A DNA stretch of 32,562 bases, taken from Bacteroidota bacterium (GTDB taxonomy: Bacteria > Bacteroidota > Bacteroidia > UKL13-3). Shown here one piece after another: positions 7,192 through 19,065 of the stretch; positions within the stretch are counted from its first letter, which is position 1, and every line of letters starts with the position of its first letter. Under the pieces are notes generated by a model. It was not told the origin of the DNA. It was given only the letters and a program-made list of their open reading frames with translations, and did no database searches. The stretch covers positions 1-32,562 of the forward strand of contig CANGPW010000027.1 of NCBI GenBank assembly GCA_947456185.1, given 5' to 3'. A program made the translations under genes and the position numbers.

Positions 7192-9000
7192 ATGATACAA
7201 GCTAAGCAACATCAATTTCATATACCTGTAATGGGTCTTGGATTTACCATTGATACTCCAGTAAAAATTGCTCGTTATGGAATAAATTCTGCTATTTCTA
7301 TTGTAGAAGATAATTTAATAGAACAAATGCGAGAATTTTATTGTAATAAATTGAATTTTCCTTACGAAAAAATAACTAATACAGAGGATGATTACAGGGC
7401 TAAAAGAATTACTGCCTATTTAAATTTAGTAGATTATATGGTTCAAGACCAATCGAAAGAATTAAAATCAGAAGCATTTGAACCATTAACAGACATTACA
7501 AAATATTTTGAACTATTACCTGAAAATTCTCCTGTAAAAATTAAATATAATCAACTTCAAAAATTAAGTGTAGAAGCTAGAATTAATTTAGAAAATGAAT
7601 TAAGAAATGAATTAATAAGTGGTTCTATTGAGGTAAATATTATGACCAAAGTTGATAAGCCAAATTATGATAATGAGGGCAATATATTGGGAATAGAATT
7701 TTCGGATGCATTATCGGCTTTACGTGGTTTTGCAAATAGTAATTTAAGTTCTGGAGTCATATTTTCGGCTGGTTTAAACCCTCGTTTATACAGCTATTGC
7801 GAGTCGTTTCCGGATTTTTATCCTGACAAAAATGGCTATTTAAAAAAGAAAATTATTTTAAAAGTCAGTGATTACAGATCAGCTTTAGTGCAAGGAAAAT
7901 TCTTAGCAAAAAAAGGTTTATGGGTTTCAGAATATAGAATTGAATCTGGCTTAAATTGTGGCGGACACGCATTTGCAACTGAAGGACTTTTAATGGGTCC
8001 TATTTTAGAAGAATTTAAAAACAAAAGAGATGAATTATTTGATGAAGTTTATGCTGTTTGCGAAGCAGCTTTAACAACTAATGGAAAAGGAAAATTTAAT
8101 ACAAAACCAGTATTAAATATTACCGCTCAAGGTGGAATAGGAACTGCCATTGAAAATAATTTTTTTCTTGATTACTATCAATTAAGTAGTATTGGTTGGG
8201 GAAGTCCATTTTTATTAGTTCCCGAAGTTACCAATGTAGATAAAGTAACATTAAACAGTTTGGCTACTGCTAAGCCCGATGATTATTTTTTAAGTCATGC
8301 TTCACCTTTAGGTGTGCCTTTTAATAATTTTAGAAAAAGCAGTTCAGAAGCACAAAGAATAGAACGAATTGAAAAAGGAAAAGCGGGAAGTCCGTGCTTA
8401 AAAAAATTCTTACAGTTCAATACAGAATTTACCAAAACACCCATTTGTACCGCTTCTACAAAGTACCAATATTTTAAATTAAAAGAACTAAAAGAAGCTG
8501 GATTAAGTGATGAAAAATATGCTGAACAAGAAAAAATAATTCAAGAAAAAGATTGTTTGTGCGAAGGATTAAGTGTGCCCGCATTATTGGTAAATGACAT
8601 AGCTGTGCCGTTTAATTTTAATGCAGTAACCATTTGTCCTGGACCTAATTTGGCGTTTTTCTCGGGTGTACATACTTTAAAACAAATGGTGGACCATATT
8701 TATGGTAAAACAAATATTTTAAACGATGTGCCAAGGTCAAATGTGTTTATTAACGAACTTAGACTTTATGTAAAATATTTGGTGAATGAAAATAATAATA
8801 TTTCACATCAATTTAACCAGAAAAAAGAAGATTATATCAATAAATTTAAAGCAAATTTATTAATAGGAATCAACTACTATCAAGAGTTGGCAGAAAAAAT
8901 GGAAGGCCAAGCCAACGAATTATTTAAAGGCATGCAAAATGAATTAGTACAAATAGAAATTTCATTGCTTGCATTAAAAACTGCTACTGTAACTGTATAA
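7192..9000 (+). CDS. Uncharacterised 602-residue protein, possible FMN/Fe-S TIM-barrel enzyme, upstream of nadAB
   Basis: I do not recognise a named family with certainty. The N-terminus IPVMGLGFTIDTPVKIARYGI reads like the first strand of a TIM barrel. SGLNCGGHAFATEGLLMGPILEEF (C256-G-G-H259) and LNITAQGGIGTAIENNF resemble the GGH and GGI phosphate/flavin-binding turns of nitronate monooxygenase-like FMN proteins. The last third carries five cysteines in conserved-looking contexts: C402 (GSPCLKKFL), C419 (TPICTAS), C455 and C457 (KDCLCEG) and C482 (TICPGPN). These could ligate a metal or Fe-S cluster. No signal peptide is seen, so it is probably cytoplasmic. It begins 12 bp after rmlD and ends 18 bp before nadA, another Fe-S enzyme. 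Function is unknown; the flavin and cluster assignments are inference. Confidence 0.75.
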   Translation: MIQAKQHQFHIPVMGLGFTIDTPVKIARYGINSAISIVEDNLIEQMREFYCNKLNFPYEKITNTEDDYRAKRITAYLNLVDYMVQDQSKELKSEAFEPLTDITKYFELLPENSPVKIKYNQLQKLSVEARINLENELRNELISGSIEVNIMTKVDKPNYDNEGNILGIEFSDALSALRGFANSNLSSGVIFSAGLNPRLYSYCESFPDFYPDKNGYLKKKIILKVSDYRSALVQGKFLAKKGLWVSEYRIESGLNCGGHAFATEGLLMGPILEEFKNKRDELFDEVYAVCEAALTTNGKGKFNTKPVLNITAQGGIGTAIENNFFLDYYQLSSIGWGSPFLLVPEVTNVDKVTLNSLATAKPDDYFLSHASPLGVPFNNFRKSSSEAQRIERIEKGKAGSPCLKKFLQFNTEFTKTPICTASTKYQYFKLKELKEAGLSDEKYAEQEKIIQEKDCLCEGLSVPALLVNDIAVPFNFNAVTICPGPNLAFFSGVHTLKQMVDHIYGKTNILNDVPRSNVFINELRLYVKYLVNENNNISHQFNQKKEDYINKFKANLLIGINYYQELAEKMEGQANELFKGMQNELVQIEISLLALKTATVTV

Positions 9001-9018: not shown

Positions 9019-9966
9019 ATGTTAAATGCTGACTCAAAAGTAGATTTTGCTAAGGAGATTTTGGCTTTAAAAAAAGCTAAAAAAGCAATAATTCTTGCTC
9101 ATTATTATCAAGAACCAGCTATTCAAGACATAGCCGATTTTGTGGGTGATAGTTTGGCTTTATCAAAACAAGCAGCTAGTACCAATGCCGATATAATTGT
9201 TTTTGCTGGCGTACATTTTATGGCTGAAACAGCAAAAATTTTAAACCCAACTAAAAAGGTTTTATTGCCCGATTTAGCCGCTGGTTGCTCGTTGGCTGAA
9301 TCATGTTCTGCTAGCGATTTTGCTGCTTTTAAAAAGCTGCATCCAAATCATGTTTGTATTACTTATATCAATTGTTCGGCCCAGGTAAAAGCATTAAGCG
9401 ATATTATTTGTACTTCGTCAAATGCTAAAAAAATAGTGGAATCAATTCCTTTGAATACGCCAATAATATTTGCCCCTGACCGTAATTTAGGAAAGTATTT
9501 AATGCATGAAACTGGTAGAGATATTTTACTTTGGGATGGAGCCTGTATAGTTCATGAAGCATTTTCATTCCAAAAATTAATAGTTCTTCATTTATTACAT
9601 CCAAATGCAAAAATAATAGCACATCCAGAATCTGAAACTGATGTATTAAAAGTGGCACATTTTGTTGGTTCAACTAAGGCCATGTTAGACTTTGTAAAAA
9701 ACGATGCTTGCACAGAATTTTTAATAGCTACAGAAGTTGGAATTATACATCAAATGATGCATGACGTGCCTCATAAAACATTCATTCCCGTTCCTGCAAA
9801 AGAAGACAATACTTGCGCTTGCAGCGAATGCGCATTTATGAAAGTAAATACAATGGAAAAATTATATAACTGCTTATTGAACGAAACTCCTGAAATAGTT
9901 CTTTCAGATGAATTGATTCAAAAGGCAATTTTACCATTAAATAAAATGTTGGCATTATCAAATTAA
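9019..9966 (+). CDS. nadA: Quinolinate synthase A
   Basis: This 315-residue [4Fe-4S] enzyme condenses iminoaspartate with dihydroxyacetone phosphate to quinolinate, the NAD precursor. [55 protein letters not shown] and VGSTKAM are standard NadA segments. By comparison with Thermotoga NadA, the cluster ligands should be C90 (AAGCSLA), C176 (GACIVHE) and C271 ([10 protein letters not shown]). C266 and C268 add a CxCxxC group near the third ligand; similar extra cysteines occur in other NadA proteins. It is followed after 4 bp by nadB, which supplies its substrate. Confidence 0.96.
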
Positions 9967-9970
9967 CGCA

Positions 9971-11518
9971 ATGGAAAACACAGACATTCTTATTGTAGGT
10001 TCGGGCATTGGAGGTTTATCATTGGCTATAAAAATAAATAGCTTAAATCCTGATTTGAAAATTACATTAATTACTAAAGCCGATGCGCTAGAAAGTAATA
10101 CAAGATATGCTCAAGGTGGCATTGCCGCTGTATTAGATACCATTAACGATTCGTTTGAAAGTCATATAAACGATACTTTAAAATGTGGTGTCGGACTTTG
10201 TATAAAACCAATTGTAGAAATGGTAGTTCACAAAGCGCCTGAAAGAATAAAAGAATTGGAAAATTTAGGTGTTCAATTTGATAAAAAATCGAATGGAAAT
10301 ATTCACTTGTCTTTGGAAGGTGGCCATGATGCGCCTCGCATCGCACACCATAAAGATAAAACAGGTTTTGAAATAGAAACAGTTTTGTTAAATGAAGTAA
10401 AATCCAGAAAAAATATTGATTTGATTTCACACCAAATAGTCATTGATTTGGTAACAAATAATGACCATGAAAACAAGAAATGTATTGGCGTAAATGTATT
10501 TGAACATTTAACCAATAAAATAAAATCCATAGCCGCCAAAACCATTGTATTGGCAACTGGTGGTTGTGGGCAGGTTTATTATAATACCACCAATCCTTTG
10601 GTTGCCACTGGCGATGGTTACGGAATGGCTTACCGTGCTGGCGCAATACTAGAAAACATGCGTTTTGTGCAATTTCATCCTACTACTTTATTCCAAAAGA
10701 ATCACAATGATGTTTCGTTCCTAATTTCGGAAGCAGTTCGTGGTTTTGGCGCTCATGTAATTGATGAAAATGAAAATAGGTTTTTGTTCGTTTATGACAA
10801 GCGTGGAGAGTTAGCTACTCGTGATATTGTAAGCGCTGCAATTTTTGAAAACATGAAAGCTAAAAAAACGGATTGTGTGTACTTAGATTTACGTCATTTA
10901 AATGCAAAAGCTTTTCAAAATAATTTTCCAGTTATTACCAAAAAATTAACCGAATTAGGCTATCATATTCCTACCGATTTAATTCCAATAGTTCCATCGG
11001 CACATTATCAATGTGGTGGAGTAAAAGTAAATGAAAAAGGTCAAACAACTATTGAAAATTTATATGCTTTGGGAGAAGTATCGTGTACAGGATTGCATGG
11101 TGCAAACAGACTCGCATCAAACTCCCTTTTAGAAGCGCTTGTTTTTGCCCACGAAGCAGCAGTAAATATTGTAAATAACATTGATTTTTTGAAACAAAAT
11201 AGTAAAGATTTAACACCAATAACTAAAGAAAATTTAGTGCAATACACTAACTATAATTGGATTCAAAAACAGACTAATTTATTGAAGAAAACCATGAGTG
11301 CAGCTACTTTTCAAGCTGTTAATTATAATTATAAAAAGGTACTAGATTTTACAGAACAAATATTAGAAAATATTGAAAGAGAAAACGCTGAAAATTATTA
11401 TTCCATGGAACTTTTAAACTTACGAAGTTTGGCTACTACAGCTAAAATAATTATTGAAGATATAATTTATTCCAATCAACTAAAACATAAAAATCATTTA
11501 GTATTAGAAACAATTTAA
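9971..11518 (+). CDS. nadB: L-aspartate oxidase
   Basis: This 515-residue FAD enzyme oxidises L-aspartate to iminoaspartate for NadA. It shows the FAD dinucleotide-binding start ILIVGSGIGGLSLAIKI, SNTRYAQGGIAAVLD, FVQFHPTTL with H236, EAVRGFGAHVIDENENRF, and GEVSCTGLHGANRLASNSLLEALVF with the substrate-binding arginine R380. The C-terminal helical domain is present and length is normal. The order nadA-nadB with a 4-bp gap indicates one transcript. The tyrosine phenol-lyase-like gene begins only 3 bp downstream, an unusual neighbour. Confidence 0.96.
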   Translation: MENTDILIVGSGIGGLSLAIKINSLNPDLKITLITKADALESNTRYAQGGIAAVLDTINDSFESHINDTLKCGVGLCIKPIVEMVVHKAPERIKELENLGVQFDKKSNGNIHLSLEGGHDAPRIAHHKDKTGFEIETVLLNEVKSRKNIDLISHQIVIDLVTNNDHENKKCIGVNVFEHLTNKIKSIAAKTIVLATGGCGQVYYNTTNPLVATGDGYGMAYRAGAILENMRFVQFHPTTLFQKNHNDVSFLISEAVRGFGAHVIDENENRFLFVYDKRGELATRDIVSAAIFENMKAKKTDCVYLDLRHLNAKAFQNNFPVITKKLTELGYHIPTDLIPIVPSAHYQCGGVKVNEKGQTTIENLYALGEVSCTGLHGANRLASNSLLEALVFAHEAAVNIVNNIDFLKQNSKDLTPITKENLVQYTNYNWIQKQTNLLKKTMSAATFQAVNYNYKKVLDFTEQILENIERENAENYYSMELLNLRSLATTAKIIIEDIIYSNQLKHKNHLVLETI

Positions 11519-14952
<3,434 letters not shown>

Positions 14953-14955
14953 AAA

Positions 14956-15369
14956 ATGAAGATAAAACCAATCCATATTTTTATAGTTTTAAGTTTAAGT
15001 TTTTTAATTTATTCTTTTAGCATTTATATACATCCAATATATGCTAAAACCGAAGCGAATATTAATATAGAAAAAGCCATTAGCGGCAGATTAGTTTGGC
15101 AAAAATATAATTGCCAAAGTTGTCATCAATTTTATGGTTTAGGTGGATATATAGGAACTGATTTAACCAATATTTATTCAGCAAAGAATAAAGGAAATGC
15201 AATAATAAAGGCAGTAATTTTAACAGGAAATGATGCTATGCCAGCTTATCATTTATCGGAAAATGAATTAACAGATTTGATGGAATTTTTCAAACAAACC
15301 AATCAAAGTGGCAGGGCTGATTATAATAATTTTACAATTTATAACAACGGAATGATAGAACGAAAATGA
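14956..15369 (+). CDS. NorC-like membrane-anchored cytochrome c
   Basis: This 137-residue protein has one N-terminal membrane segment (about residues 6-30) followed by a monohaem cytochrome c domain. The haem-c motif is C53-Q-S-C56-H57. M95 in NDAMPAYHLSENEL is the likely axial methionine. GRLVWQKYNCQSCHQFYGLGGYIGTDLTN closely follows the NorC pattern of cNOR-type nitric oxide reductases. It would pass electrons from a periplasmic donor to the catalytic subunit encoded by the next gene, which it overlaps by 4 bp. I leave the symbol empty because the partner lacks key NorB ligands. Confidence 0.85.
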   Translation: MKIKPIHIFIVLSLSFLIYSFSIYIHPIYAKTEANINIEKAISGRLVWQKYNCQSCHQFYGLGGYIGTDLTNIYSAKNKGNAIIKAVILTGNDAMPAYHLSENELTDLMEFFKQTNQSGRADYNNFTIYNNGMIERK

Positions 15370-16703
15370 TTAAACAAATAAATTTTGGTAAATTATTTTT
15401 TGCATTTGCCTTGCTATTACTGCTAGCAGGTATTGTGTTTGGATTATTGGCATCTTATGTTTATATAAATCCTAAATTTTTAAAAGATTCATTGGGGTTT
15501 TCAGCGCTTAGGCCCTTGCATGTTTCCTTGGTAGTTTTTTGGATTATATTGGGAGCTACAGCAAGTGTAATTAGTGGCATGCAGTTAATCAATCCAAATG
15601 CATTTTCTAGTAAAACTGTTGCTTTACAGTTAGCACTCTGGATGATAGCAATTATTGGTATTGTAATTGGTTATTTTAACCAAGAATTTGGCGGTAGAGA
15701 ATACTGGGAATTTAATCCTATTTGGGCATTGCCAATTGCAATATCGTGGTTATTGTTTTTATATAACTTTTTAAAAACTGCGCTTAAAATAAAAAATTGG
15801 CCTGTCTATATTTGGATGTGGATGACAGGCATTATCTTTTTCTTATTTACTTTTATTGAAAATTACCTTTGGATTTTCCCCTATTTCAGGGAAAACTTCA
15901 TTACCGATATGACCATTCAGTGGAAAGTAAATGGTTCGTTAGTGGGTTCGTGGAATCAAATTATTTATGGCACTGCTTTTTTCTTAATGGATAGAATTAG
16001 TGGGAATAATAAAGTGGGTTACAGTAAACTTTCTTTCGCCATGTTTTTCCTCGGTTTGTTTAACCTCATGTTTAATTGGGGTCATCATATTTACACCCTT
16101 CCAACCGAATATTATATTAGGTATATTGGTTATGTAGTTAGCATGACAGAATGGATTTTCTTTATTAGAATAGTTTATTCGTGGAGGTCAACTTTAAACG
16201 ATATAAACTCCAATTATAATTACTATCCATATCGTTTTATTATGGCTTCCGACTTTTGGGTTTTTTTAAATATGGGACAAGCTATATTAATGTCAATTCC
16301 CGCTATTAATATTTATACGCATGGCACGCATGTTACTGTTGCGCACGCAATGGGAACCACCATTGGAATAAATACCATGATTCTTTTTGCAGCTTGTTTT
16401 ACTTATTTTAGTAAGCACTCCAAAACGTATGGCAAATCAAATAAACGCTTAAATATTGCTTTTTGGATTGTTCAAATTAGTTTATTAATTTTTTGGATTT
16501 CATTAAATATTGCTGGAATAAAAAAGGGAATTTGGCAAGTTACAAACAGTACTATTTCTCACCATGATATGATGAAAAGCTTGATGCCTTGGTTTCAAAC
16601 TTTTACTTACTCTGGTGTATTATTAATGATATCATTGGCTTTTTTATGCATCACTATTTTATACCATTATGTTAAAAGTATAGTTAGTCAAAAAGCCAAT
16701 TAA
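15366..16703 (+). CDS. Divergent NorB-like haem-copper-superfamily catalytic subunit
   Basis: This 445-residue, roughly 12-helix membrane protein is NorB-like. H52 (RPLHVSLVVFW) corresponds to the first low-spin haem ligand. The GHH pair H240/H241 corresponds to FeB ligands His258/His259 of Pseudomonas NorB, E262 fits Glu280, and H327 in YTHGTHVTVAHAM fits the high-spin haem ligand His347. The 51-residue spacing from canonical His207 to His258 is kept exactly, but position 207 is N189, Glu211 is V193 and Glu215 is N197. The second low-spin haem ligand (His349) falls on M329. The partner NorC-like cytochrome overlaps by 4 bp. NO reductase activity is therefore uncertain; it may be a variant NOR or have another function. 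Confidence 0.82.
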   Translation: MIKQINFGKLFFAFALLLLLAGIVFGLLASYVYINPKFLKDSLGFSALRPLHVSLVVFWIILGATASVISGMQLINPNAFSSKTVALQLALWMIAIIGIVIGYFNQEFGGREYWEFNPIWALPIAISWLLFLYNFLKTALKIKNWPVYIWMWMTGIIFFLFTFIENYLWIFPYFRENFITDMTIQWKVNGSLVGSWNQIIYGTAFFLMDRISGNNKVGYSKLSFAMFFLGLFNLMFNWGHHIYTLPTEYYIRYIGYVVSMTEWIFFIRIVYSWRSTLNDINSNYNYYPYRFIMASDFWVFLNMGQAILMSIPAINIYTHGTHVTVAHAMGTTIGINTMILFAACFTYFSKHSKTYGKSNKRLNIAFWIVQISLLIFWISLNIAGIKKGIWQVTNSTISHHDMMKSLMPWFQTFTYSGVLLMISLAFLCITILYHYVKSIVSQKAN

Positions 16704-17260: not shown

Positions 17261-17279
17261 ATATTATAAATTGAAGGAG

Positions 17280-18023
17280 ATGAAATTTAGCATAAAATAC
17301 ATGTATTTGTCCATGGTTTTTATAACCATTGTATCCTGTACCAAAACCCAAACAATTGTGGAAGATCCTATTGCTCCAAAAGGAATTTTGAATATTCAAA
17401 TTTCTCATGAAGTAGATGGAAAAGCATTGATTTTTGATTCCATGTTATACCATAACAATGCCAATAATTTTTACAGTGTTTCGCGTGTAAATTATTATAT
17501 TTCTAATGTTAAATTATGGGGTAAGGGCAATAATAATTACTTATTTGATTCCATCATGTTTATTGATGCGAGTTTAAAATCAATCAACTTCAATTTATCA
17601 AGTGTACCAGTTGGCAATTATCAATATATTTCGTTTAATATTGGAATAGATGCTGCAAGAAATATTCATAATACCATTCCAAATTCACCAGAAAACATTT
17701 CCATGCTTTGGCCCGATGTAATGGGTGGGGGTTATCATTTTTTAAAACTAGAAGGAAAATATTTGGATTCGTTAAATAATGAAAAAGGAATTGCCATTCA
17801 TATTGGTTTAAATTCATCGTTGGTTTATCAAAACCCAATTATAAAAGACATCAATATTGCTGAAAACAAAACTACCAACTTAAGCTTGGCAATGAATTTA
17901 AACGAATGGTTTACCAATCCTTATGCTTTTAATTTTGACATAGATGGTAACTATACAATGGGCGATTCAACCGCTATGAATTATATTAAAAACAATGGTA
18001 ATGATGTATTTTATGCAAAGTAA
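17280..18023 (+). CDS. MbnP-family lipoprotein (predicted copper-binding)
   Basis: This protein has 247 residues from ATG 17280; an in-frame TTG at 17271 would add MKE, but it leaves less upstream room. The N-terminus MKFSIKYMYLSMVFITIVSC is a lipoprotein signal with lipobox IVSC. The body shows the MbnP-like pattern: LNIQISHEVDGKALIFDS, FYSVSRVNYYISNVKLWG, SVPVGNYQYISFNIGID, a Trp-Pro segment MLWPDVMGGGYHFLKLEG (W144), and a histidine in GIAIHIGL. In methanotroph MbnP/CorA proteins a tryptophan is oxidised to kynurenine by the dihaem partner MbnH and helps bind copper; W144 is a candidate but not proven. It overlaps the following mbnH-like gene. An AAGGAG lies directly against the ATG, too close to serve it. 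Confidence 0.8.
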   Translation: MKFSIKYMYLSMVFITIVSCTKTQTIVEDPIAPKGILNIQISHEVDGKALIFDSMLYHNNANNFYSVSRVNYYISNVKLWGKGNNNYLFDSIMFIDASLKSINFNLSSVPVGNYQYISFNIGIDAARNIHNTIPNSPENISMLWPDVMGGGYHFLKLEGKYLDSLNNEKGIAIHIGLNSSLVYQNPIIKDINIAENKTTNLSLAMNLNEWFTNPYAFNFDIDGNYTMGDSTAMNYIKNNGNDVFYAK

Positions 18024-19065
18024 ATTTTTAAAAATAAGCTTAATTGTTTTAGTGAGCTTGATGTTTTCATGTACCAAAAACCCAAGCAATGATCCTGAAA
18101 TAAATTACTATAAACCCACACCTTATAAGATACAAATTCCGGCTGGTTTTCCTGAATACAATGTTTTATCTATTGCTAATCCATTAACAGTAGAGGGAAT
18201 TGCTCTTGGCAAAAGTTTTTATTTCGACCCCATTTTATCAACCAATGGTAGAAGTTGTAATTCTTGTCATTTCAAGGAAAATTCGTATTCAATTCCAATT
18301 TATAATGCAAAAAATGGATTTAAAATTAGCGTGCCTCCACATGTAAATTTAGCTTTTAAAAAGAACTATAATTGGACAGGTTCAGAATTAAGTTTAGATA
18401 CTTTATGCATGGGCGATTTTGCTCCTGAATTTTTCAATTCAGATTCAGCCACTTTATATGCAGCACTTTACAAACACCCATTTTATAAAGATGCTATTTA
18501 CAAAGCGTTTTTAATTAACGATATTTACACACTAAATTTCAAACAGCTTCAAAAGAAAATTGCTTACGCTATTTCACAATATTTAAGAACTAAAATTAGC
18601 GTGAATTCAAAATACGATCAATTACAATTAGGAACTGCTAGGTATACTGATGAAGAATGGGAAGGTTATAATATATTTTTTACCGAAAAAGGCGATTGTT
18701 TTCATTGTCATCAACCACCACTTTTTAGCGATAATGAGTTCCATAATAATGGCGTAAGTGCTACTTTTGAAGGCTTTGACGCAGGCCGTTGGTTAGTTAC
18801 TAATAACAAATCTGATATAGGAAAATTTGCAACTCCAACTTTAAGAAATTTAAGTTTTACTGCTCCATATATGCACGATGGACGCTTTAAAACATTGGAA
18901 GAAGTAGTGGAATTTTATAATGCTGGAGTTAACTATTCGCCAACTATTGATCCTATTAGTAGTAGTAAAAAAGCACCTAGTTATCAATTGAATTTAAGTA
19001 CACAACAAAAAGCATCGTTGTTAGCATTTCTTAAAACTTTAAGCGATGATAGTTATGTAAAATAG
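18013..19065 (+). CDS. MbnH/MauG-type dihaem cytochrome c peroxidase-family lipoprotein
   Basis: This protein has 350 residues from ATG 18013, chosen because MQSKFLKISLIVLVSLMFSC is a compact lipoprotein signal; in-frame ATGs at 17995, 18001 and 18004 would lengthen it. It carries two haem-c motifs, C82-N-S-C85-H86 and C229-F-H-C232-H233. It also has the CcpA/MauG-type segments GIALGKSFYFDPILSTNGRS, AISQYLRTKISVNSKYD, EEWEGYNIFFTEKGDCFHC, and ATPTLRNLSFTAPYMHDGRFKTLEEVVEFYN. Pairing with an MbnP-family gene is typical of MbnH, which oxidises a tryptophan of MbnP. Its start codon overlaps the mbnP stop region, so the two are co-translated. A plain cytochrome c peroxidase role is possible but less supported by context. 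Confidence 0.83.
   Translation: MQSKFLKISLIVLVSLMFSCTKNPSNDPEINYYKPTPYKIQIPAGFPEYNVLSIANPLTVEGIALGKSFYFDPILSTNGRSCNSCHFKENSYSIPIYNAKNGFKISVPPHVNLAFKKNYNWTGSELSLDTLCMGDFAPEFFNSDSATLYAALYKHPFYKDAIYKAFLINDIYTLNFKQLQKKIAYAISQYLRTKISVNSKYDQLQLGTARYTDEEWEGYNIFFTEKGDCFHCHQPPLFSDNEFHNNGVSATFEGFDAGRWLVTNNKSDIGKFATPTLRNLSFTAPYMHDGRFKTLEEVVEFYNAGVNYSPTIDPISSSKKAPSYQLNLSTQQKASLLAFLKTLSDDSYVK

Follow-up and report, generated by a model that had tools for sequence, protein, structure and literature searches.

A NorB-like haem-copper family, mainly of Bacteroidota, that lacks the helix-VI metal ligands and carries methionine at haem b: a candidate NO-consuming enzyme

The window – the whole stretch of DNA analysed here, 32,562 nucleotides long – contains a two-gene unit encoding a NorC-like cytochrome and a NorB-like membrane protein, the two frames overlapping by four bases (ATGA) at the stop of the first and the start of the second. 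The NorB-like protein belongs to the COX1 family of membrane proteins (Pfam COX1, E 8.1e-38) and thus a homologue of the haem-copper superfamily; its best solved relatives by sequence are the NorB subunits of cNOR, 4xyd_A (2e-19) and 3o0r_B (1.2e-14). An AF2 model (pLDDT 88.7, pTM 0.91) has its best Foldseek match in the cNOR chain 3o0r_B (TM 0.83, E 8.3e-13), with 4xyd_A at TM 0.85, and the nearest folds are those of cNOR (TM 0.83–0.85) and cbb3 (TM 0.82–0.85). The features are as follows, with residue counts for the 81 family rows described below, or for 80 rows at His327 and Met329, before which one of the 81 ends.

14956-15369, + strand: norC-like ORF; membrane-anchored cytochrome c with CxxCH and axial Met95, its stop overlapping the norB-like start
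15366-16703, + strand: norB-like ORF; 445 aa, ATG start, intact frame; haem-copper superfamily catalytic subunit with variant FeB and haem b sites
15519-15521, + strand: His52 codon; first haem b ligand, kept (H 81/81)
15930-15932, + strand: Asn189 codon; column of the cNOR FeB ligand His207 (N 61, Y 19, S 1; n = 81)
15942-15944, + strand: Val193 codon; column of the FeB ligand Glu211 (V 78/81, never acidic)
15954-15956, + strand: Asn197 codon; column of Glu215, second sphere (N 81/81)
16083-16088, + strand: His240-His241 codons; the two kept FeB histidines (H 81/81 each)
16149-16151, + strand: Glu262 codon; Glu280 column, candidate carboxylate ligand (E 81/81)
16344-16346, + strand: His327 codon; haem b3 proximal ligand, kept (H 80/80)
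16350-16352, + strand: Met329 codon; replaces the second haem b ligand (M 80/80; His in 27/27 cNOR, qNOR, Nod and cbb3 rows)

A preliminary description of this DNA anchored the comparison with NorB on a gap-free spacing between helix VI and the GHH motif. That spacing holds: the 51 residues from N189 to H240 align without a gap with both NorB structures (4xyd_A and 3o0r_B), and relative to cNOR a one-residue gap lies directly before N189. Profile–profile comparison of the family (65 rows) with cNOR (12 rows) pairs the residues in the same way (probability 99.7, E 2.7e-27), with one gap just before Asn189. The residue assignments made there are likewise upheld, with N189, V193, N197 and M329 replacing His207, Glu211, Glu215 and a haem b histidine, and H52, H240, H241, E262 and H327 kept. 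Three linked sites had been counted as changed, and all three changes are present, but Glu215 is not an FeB ligand and N197 is therefore a second-sphere replacement. A quick alignment shifted cbb3 by one residue, and a careful alignment of 58 rows was used for column 189; there, every one of the 27 cNOR, qNOR, Nod and cbb3 rows has His in this column where the 31 family rows have Asn or Tyr, and in column 329 the same 27 have His and the family rows Met (31/31).

The family was sampled by scanning public genomes, one per species, which gave 215 pattern matches, 210 of which encode relatives; the best 80 of the 210 were kept. Family counts refer to 81 of 88 phmmer matches (at least 400 bits, or locus L049), seven paralogues (three cNOR, three Nod and one cbb3) having been set apart, and the 81 rows comprise the window copy, two 100%-identical copies and 78 others. 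Alignment A1 consists of the window and 64 of 67 non-redundant picks (L036, L037 and L048 were left out), and its 64 other rows have 47–65% identity to the window protein. Bacteroidota is named for 76 of the 80 kept records (the best 80 of 210); two (L030 and L069) have no phylum, and two metagenome bins labelled with other phyla (L058 and L074) may be mis-binned. Plasmid records gave 234 matches to the variant, all below 60% identity and the ten listed at 26–29%, and a PHROGs search gave no match.

Throughout the 81 rows, residues 182–206 (helix VI) contain no His, Glu or Asp, which excludes a helix-VI His or acid ligand for the family as sampled, including one supplied from elsewhere on the helix. 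Position 193, when not Val, is Thr, Ser or Ile (once each). Two subtypes can be distinguished, one with Asn189 together with Gln198 and Trp263 and the other with Tyr189, Met198 and Leu263 (19 rows, one with Gln198); L011 has Ser189. The residue at position 189 thus changes and the ligand loss does not, so that the family is marked by Met329 and by a helix VI with no His or acid left, and Asn189 is no hallmark. Conservation of N189, V193 and M329 among homologues had been the point at issue: M329 (80/80) and V193 (78/81) are conserved, and N189 is not fixed (Y in 19/81). The FeB site accordingly has two His in place of the three His and Glu211 of cNOR, the column of the second low-spin haem b ligand is Met329 (80/80) where 9/9 cNOR rows have the His of bis-His coordination, and four of the six superfamily His are kept.

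Seen in a single sequence, such a loss of catalytic ligands might be taken for decay of a former cNOR. This has next to no chance of being correct, because identical replacements recur across the 81 rows in open frames (N197 81/81, M329 80/80), and we regard decay as refuted. The earlier reading of a selected variant active site, based on an intact NorB-like frame and a NorC-like partner, is instead borne out by the same replacements across the best 80 of 210 relatives.

Outside the metal site, R111, E112, E115, N315 and H319 are invariant (81/81) and fall in the columns of cNOR Arg134, Glu135, Glu138, Asn335 and His339, residues assigned in PMC4816578 to the Ca2+ and haem-propionate region; the same source places calcium at the same position in cbb3 and cNOR. 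Their invariance speaks for continued binding of both b haems. Two other positions stand out: Lys187 (15924-15926), two residues before Asn189, is invariant (81/81) and is aromatic or aliphatic in cNOR, and His322 (16329-16331), at the start of helix X, is an extra His in 76/81 rows, with Gln or Leu in the compared cNOR rows, and is a possible propionate partner.

The NorC-like gene lies directly upstream in 77/81 loci (75 by script, with L051 and L061 read from the script output). All 75 aligned partners have CxxCH and Met95, and in the calcium loop Gly63 is present in 75/75 and Tyr65 in 73/75, so that a cytochrome c partner of the NorC kind is a consistent feature, as it is of cNOR.

A haem-copper tree of the kind suggested in the preliminary description was built from 58 rows (31 family rows, with cNOR, qNOR, Nod and cbb3), and in it the variant is its own clade (100/98), outside a clade of cNOR, qNOR and Nod (100/99), with cbb3 as a third group. 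The stems are long (3.4 changes per column for the variant and 6.3 for cbb3), drawing a program warning about long-branch joins; the claim is therefore limited to separateness from cNOR, qNOR and Nod, and no sister group is named. The variant resembles cNOR (NorCB; 3o0r, 4xyd) in fold, NorC partner, calcium/propionate residues, haem b3 His, His pair, Glu280 position and cytochrome c electron entry, and differs in the absence of His207, Glu211 and Glu215, in the Met at haem b, in having no NorD of its own, and in clade. It is also similar in fold to CcoN of cbb3, although 5/5 CcoN rows keep all six His and lie in a separate clade. Nod offers a further parallel, being NO-linked according to PMC3413370, having one FeB His changed to Asn and, in Bacteroidota, adjoining variant genes. 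However, Nod rows keep the helix-VI His and Glu, have Asn where the His pair has its second member and Gln in the Glu280 column (8/8), and represent a qNOR-type single chain with both haem b His kept, whereas the variant has two subunits; with its His pair and Glu262 kept in 81/81 rows, identity of the variant with NO dismutase is ruled out.

Non-canonical NO reductases have been proposed elsewhere in the superfamily. According to PMC11388526, cNOR and qNOR are related to the C-family, and bNOR, eNOR, sNOR, gNOR and nNOR to the B-family, oxygen reductases; PMC8756737 describes a cupredoxin second subunit in eNOR, sNOR and gNOR, and Gln replacing the oxidase Tyr as the mark of eNOR. The variant is like nNOR, eNOR, sNOR and gNOR as a proposed non-canonical NOR, but those are B-family enzymes and it is nearest to cNOR and cbb3, with a cytochrome c subunit. 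Membership of nNOR, which has a CuA-type subunit II, is rejected on the sequence relatives (cNOR and cbb3) and the cytochrome c partner, the tree covering cNOR, qNOR, Nod and cbb3. A non-canonical NO reductase, perhaps of an Asn-type family, was one of the two functions first suggested for the window protein, the other being an enzyme with a different small-molecule substrate. The genomic context does favour an NO enzyme, and the Asn-type link falls away, since nNOR is B-family and the nearest solved structures are cNOR and cbb3. No NorB-type family with these ligand losses was found described in the literature searched; the principal NOR-diversity survey (Murali 2024, PNAS) lay outside that scope and may contain an earlier mention.

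We put at roughly one in two (about 0.5) the probability that this is a distinct NorCB-type haem-copper family, mainly of Bacteroidota, that consumes NO, most likely in the reaction 2 NO -> N2O. The case is made by the conservation of the remaining ligands, the invariant haem-side residues and, as set out below, the enzyme set of the window's own genome, the carriers with a gap at the NO step, the enrichment of NosZ, and the NO/N2O genes found nearby and in carrier genomes. Electrons would enter at the NorC haem c and go on to a low-spin haem b whose putative ligands are His52 and Met329, a ligation that would probably raise the haem b potential. From there they would reach the His327-ligated haem b3, where NO would bind next to a non-haem metal whose ligands would be His240, His241 and probably Glu262, replacing three His and Glu211. 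A cNOR simulation has a bound water molecule between FeB and Glu280 (PMC3431322), so that direct ligation by Glu262 after remodelling is plausible. Against NO reduction stands the importance of the missing site in cNOR, where Glu211 and Glu280 are both described as critical and a Glu211Ala change probably destroys FeB coordination (PMC3431322); the variant has neither Glu211 nor His207. A fuller proposal, to which we give somewhat less than even odds, is that of a new respiratory NO-converting haem-copper class with four of the six signature His, a His/Met haem b, and a metal on two His and Glu, or none, which is spread through Bacteroidota and performs the NO step in nirK+/nosZ+ genomes otherwise scored as NOR-less.

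How the metal site would be filled bears on these proposals. Among 51 genomes NorD is present in exactly the nine with canonical cNOR and in 0/42 others, including the window's genome (G000) and a second assembly (G296); the contrast with cNOR maturation concerns NorD, the maturation gene searched for. NorQD is described as docking on the cNOR acids D220/E222 (PMC9976466), and these are not kept in the variant, column 215 being K in 39 rows and N in 8 and column 217 V in 20, T in 15, Y in 15 and I in 12, with other residues in the rest. The same source reports that cNOR made without NorQDEF is haem-loaded and lacks FeB, and that qNOR acquires its FeB without help from NorQD. With no NorD and the docking acids lost, the variant site may be filled without NorQD, in the manner of qNOR, or be different, or be empty. 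An empty FeB site would suit a non-catalytic or regulatory haem protein – an NO buffer, an NO sensor or an electron conduit to NosZ – for which the loss of the helix-VI ligands, the absence of NorD from the 42 carriers without cNOR and the altered docking acids all speak. We nevertheless find it unlikely, as His240, His241 and Glu262 are kept in 81/81 rows and would be needless in an empty site, as qNOR manages FeB insertion without NorQD (PMC9976466), and as NosZ does not reach the cut-off in 7/50 carriers.

The genome to which the window belongs (94% complete) encodes NirK (338 bits) and NosZ (940 bits), and a COX1 search found three haem-copper enzymes only: an A-family oxygen reductase with HPEVY, a cbb3 enzyme and the NorB-like variant. 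The G296 assembly has an identical NorB-like protein and the same set of NirK, NosZ and haem-copper enzymes. A flavodiiron NO reductase was considered and rejected for the window's genome, with a best match of 21 bits against a cut-off of 27.2 that 3/8 genomes searched pass, and none over the cut-off was found in G296. This leaves the variant as the sole candidate for the conversion between NirK and NosZ in this genome, barring an unsearched enzyme or a missing genome part.

Fifty carrier genomes were hand-picked for spread, non-randomly, from the 80 loci. Sec-type (clade II) NosZ occurs in 43/50 carriers versus 99/296 Bacteroidota (Fisher 2e-12, which ignores kinship); five of the 296 have strong variant matches (the window genome included, two of them partial) and NosZ is present in 5/5 (Fisher 0.004, again ignoring kinship). 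The carriers include nine with canonical cNOR, 11 with Nod and one with qNOR; among the 29 with none of these, six have both NirK and NosZ. The gene sets are NosZ only (20), NosZ+Nod (8), NosZ+NirK (6), NirK+cNOR (4), NosZ+NirK+cNOR (3), NosZ+NirK+Nod (3), NosZ+cNOR (2), NosZ+NirK+qNOR (1), NirK alone (1) and none (2). NirK is over the cut-off in 18/50 and not in 32/50, with two fragments in G300; NirS was rejected as the source of NO, since the 6/50 that pass the low Pfam cut-off (25.5 bits) reach at best 31 bits over 111/368 positions, which is unconvincing. The NO consumed thus need not come from the same cell.

The COX1 search covered eight genomes, the window's and those of the seven carriers that have NirK and show none of cNOR, qNOR and Nod, and B-family NORs were sought in these eight only. 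An A-family enzyme with HPEVY is present in 8/8 and a cbb3-type enzyme in most; G335 has a B-family enzyme with the oxidase Tyr, G303 a CcoN-like enzyme of 731 aa, and G311 (NirK, no NosZ) two B-family NOR-like enzymes with Gln or Asn replacing the Tyr. In the six NirK+NosZ carriers without cNOR, qNOR or Nod, this search recognised no B-family NOR-like motif and no other NOR. Against the NO-reduction reading, 21/50 carriers already have cNOR, qNOR or Nod, so that the variant is not their only NO enzyme, 32/50 have no NirK and 7/50 no NosZ over the cut-off, and G311 has its other NOR-like enzymes.

Gene neighbourhoods were compared across the 81 loci, one representative of each named neighbour cluster being identified. 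Within about 8 kb there are Rrf2 regulators (36/81), RIC/ScdA iron-sulphur repair proteins (21/81), nosZ/D/L (9/81) and Nod (9/81); other neighbours are anaerobic ribonucleotide reductase (13/81), Crp-type regulators (9/81) and canonical cNOR (3/81), some labels, such as NrdD and NosF, being our own presumptive assignments. In 30/81 loci none of nosZ/D/L, Rrf2, RIC, Nod, cNOR or Crp was found within the sampled stretch. Three loci (L057, L060 and L062) have the order norC-norB*-cytC-nosZ-L-D-F-Y in one direction, where F is presumably nosF. In six (L063, L071, L072, L073, L076 and L077) a divergent Nod gene adjoins the variant norC, the variant lying near 8001 in five and 4671 in L071, and these six loci are of the Tyr189 type. 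The aligned Nod rows read GISHN in the place of GTGHH, the kind of change described for putative NO dismutases (PMC3413370). The Nod gene is followed in the six loci, in one and the same order, by a DGC-domain protein (Pfam) and genes that we take to encode thioesterase-like, U32-type (missing in L071) and PPOX-type proteins.

Proximity to Nod raises the alternative of an NO-oxidising or NO-disproportionating haem enzyme acting beside Nod or NosZ, in which a high-potential His/Met haem b would draw electrons towards cytochrome c. Nod is present in 11/50 carriers as well as in the 9/81 loci, as the divergent neighbour of six Tyr189-type genes, and the variant and Nod have lost complementary halves of the site. 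We judge this alternative rather unlikely, given that 39/50 carriers show no Nod and that the NorC partner and the NO/N2O context suit an electron-consuming enzyme equally.

Activity on a different small molecule (O2, N2O or hydroxylamine), at a copper site or an iron site with two His, is improbable. Two His and a Glu resemble the facial-triad iron sites, and downstream in the window an MbnP-family gene (17271-18023, + strand) is followed by one for a MauG-type di-haem protein (17995-19065, + strand), clusters found in 12 loci each. We take these two to be a copper-linked pair, possibly relevant because NirK and NosZ require copper. The helix-VI His that carries the crosslinked Tyr in A- and B-family oxygen reductases is, however, missing from 81/81 rows, so that a His–Tyr crosslink of that kind is not available, and several neighbours are NO/N2O genes. 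NO consumption, most likely by reduction, remains the reading that we favour from this context.

The set of six His has been called the superfamily signature (PMC3413370), and a large conserved family without two of them, one being a haem b axial ligand, would alter the view of what this fold requires in order to act on NO. A recognised puzzle, the 'nir-nor mismatch' (PMC8756737), is posed by genomes that encode a nitrite reductase and neither cNOR nor qNOR; for part of the Bacteroidota the variant family offers an answer that can be tested, with a bearing on genome-based prediction of N2O production and consumption. Carriers are N2O consumers (as far as NosZ is present, in 43/50), and some are NO makers with no other known enzyme for the intermediate step. 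Curation by ligands could discard the variant, and similarity searches could label it an ordinary NorB.

Some further features were observed. A B-family haem-copper subunit I with a COX2-like partner lies near the variant norCB in L007 (9655-11693), L016 and L032, and in fragmentary form in L078; the L007 enzyme, in which Asn stands four positions beyond the helix-VI His, presumably is nNOR-like. A membrane protein of about 410 aa (L067, 9502-10755, - strand) belongs to a cluster found in ten loci (L067 and nine others); both sequences read have HSHFAF, and the single one scanned against Pfam gave no match. Rfam gave no match in the window, where a promoter scan found 30 sites against 24.1 expected and a terminator scan six against 2.2 expected. 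Upstream in the window, at 9019-12901 (+ strand), are nadA, nadB and a tyrosine phenol-lyase/tryptophanase gene, whose functional link to the variant is not evident, and before them a gene for a 602-aa protein (7192-9000, + strand) that matches nothing in Pfam or NCBIfam and belongs to a cluster lying near the variant in 30 loci. Among the 81 loci, the beta-eliminating lyase cluster is found near the variant in 46, nadA in 27 and nadB in 26.
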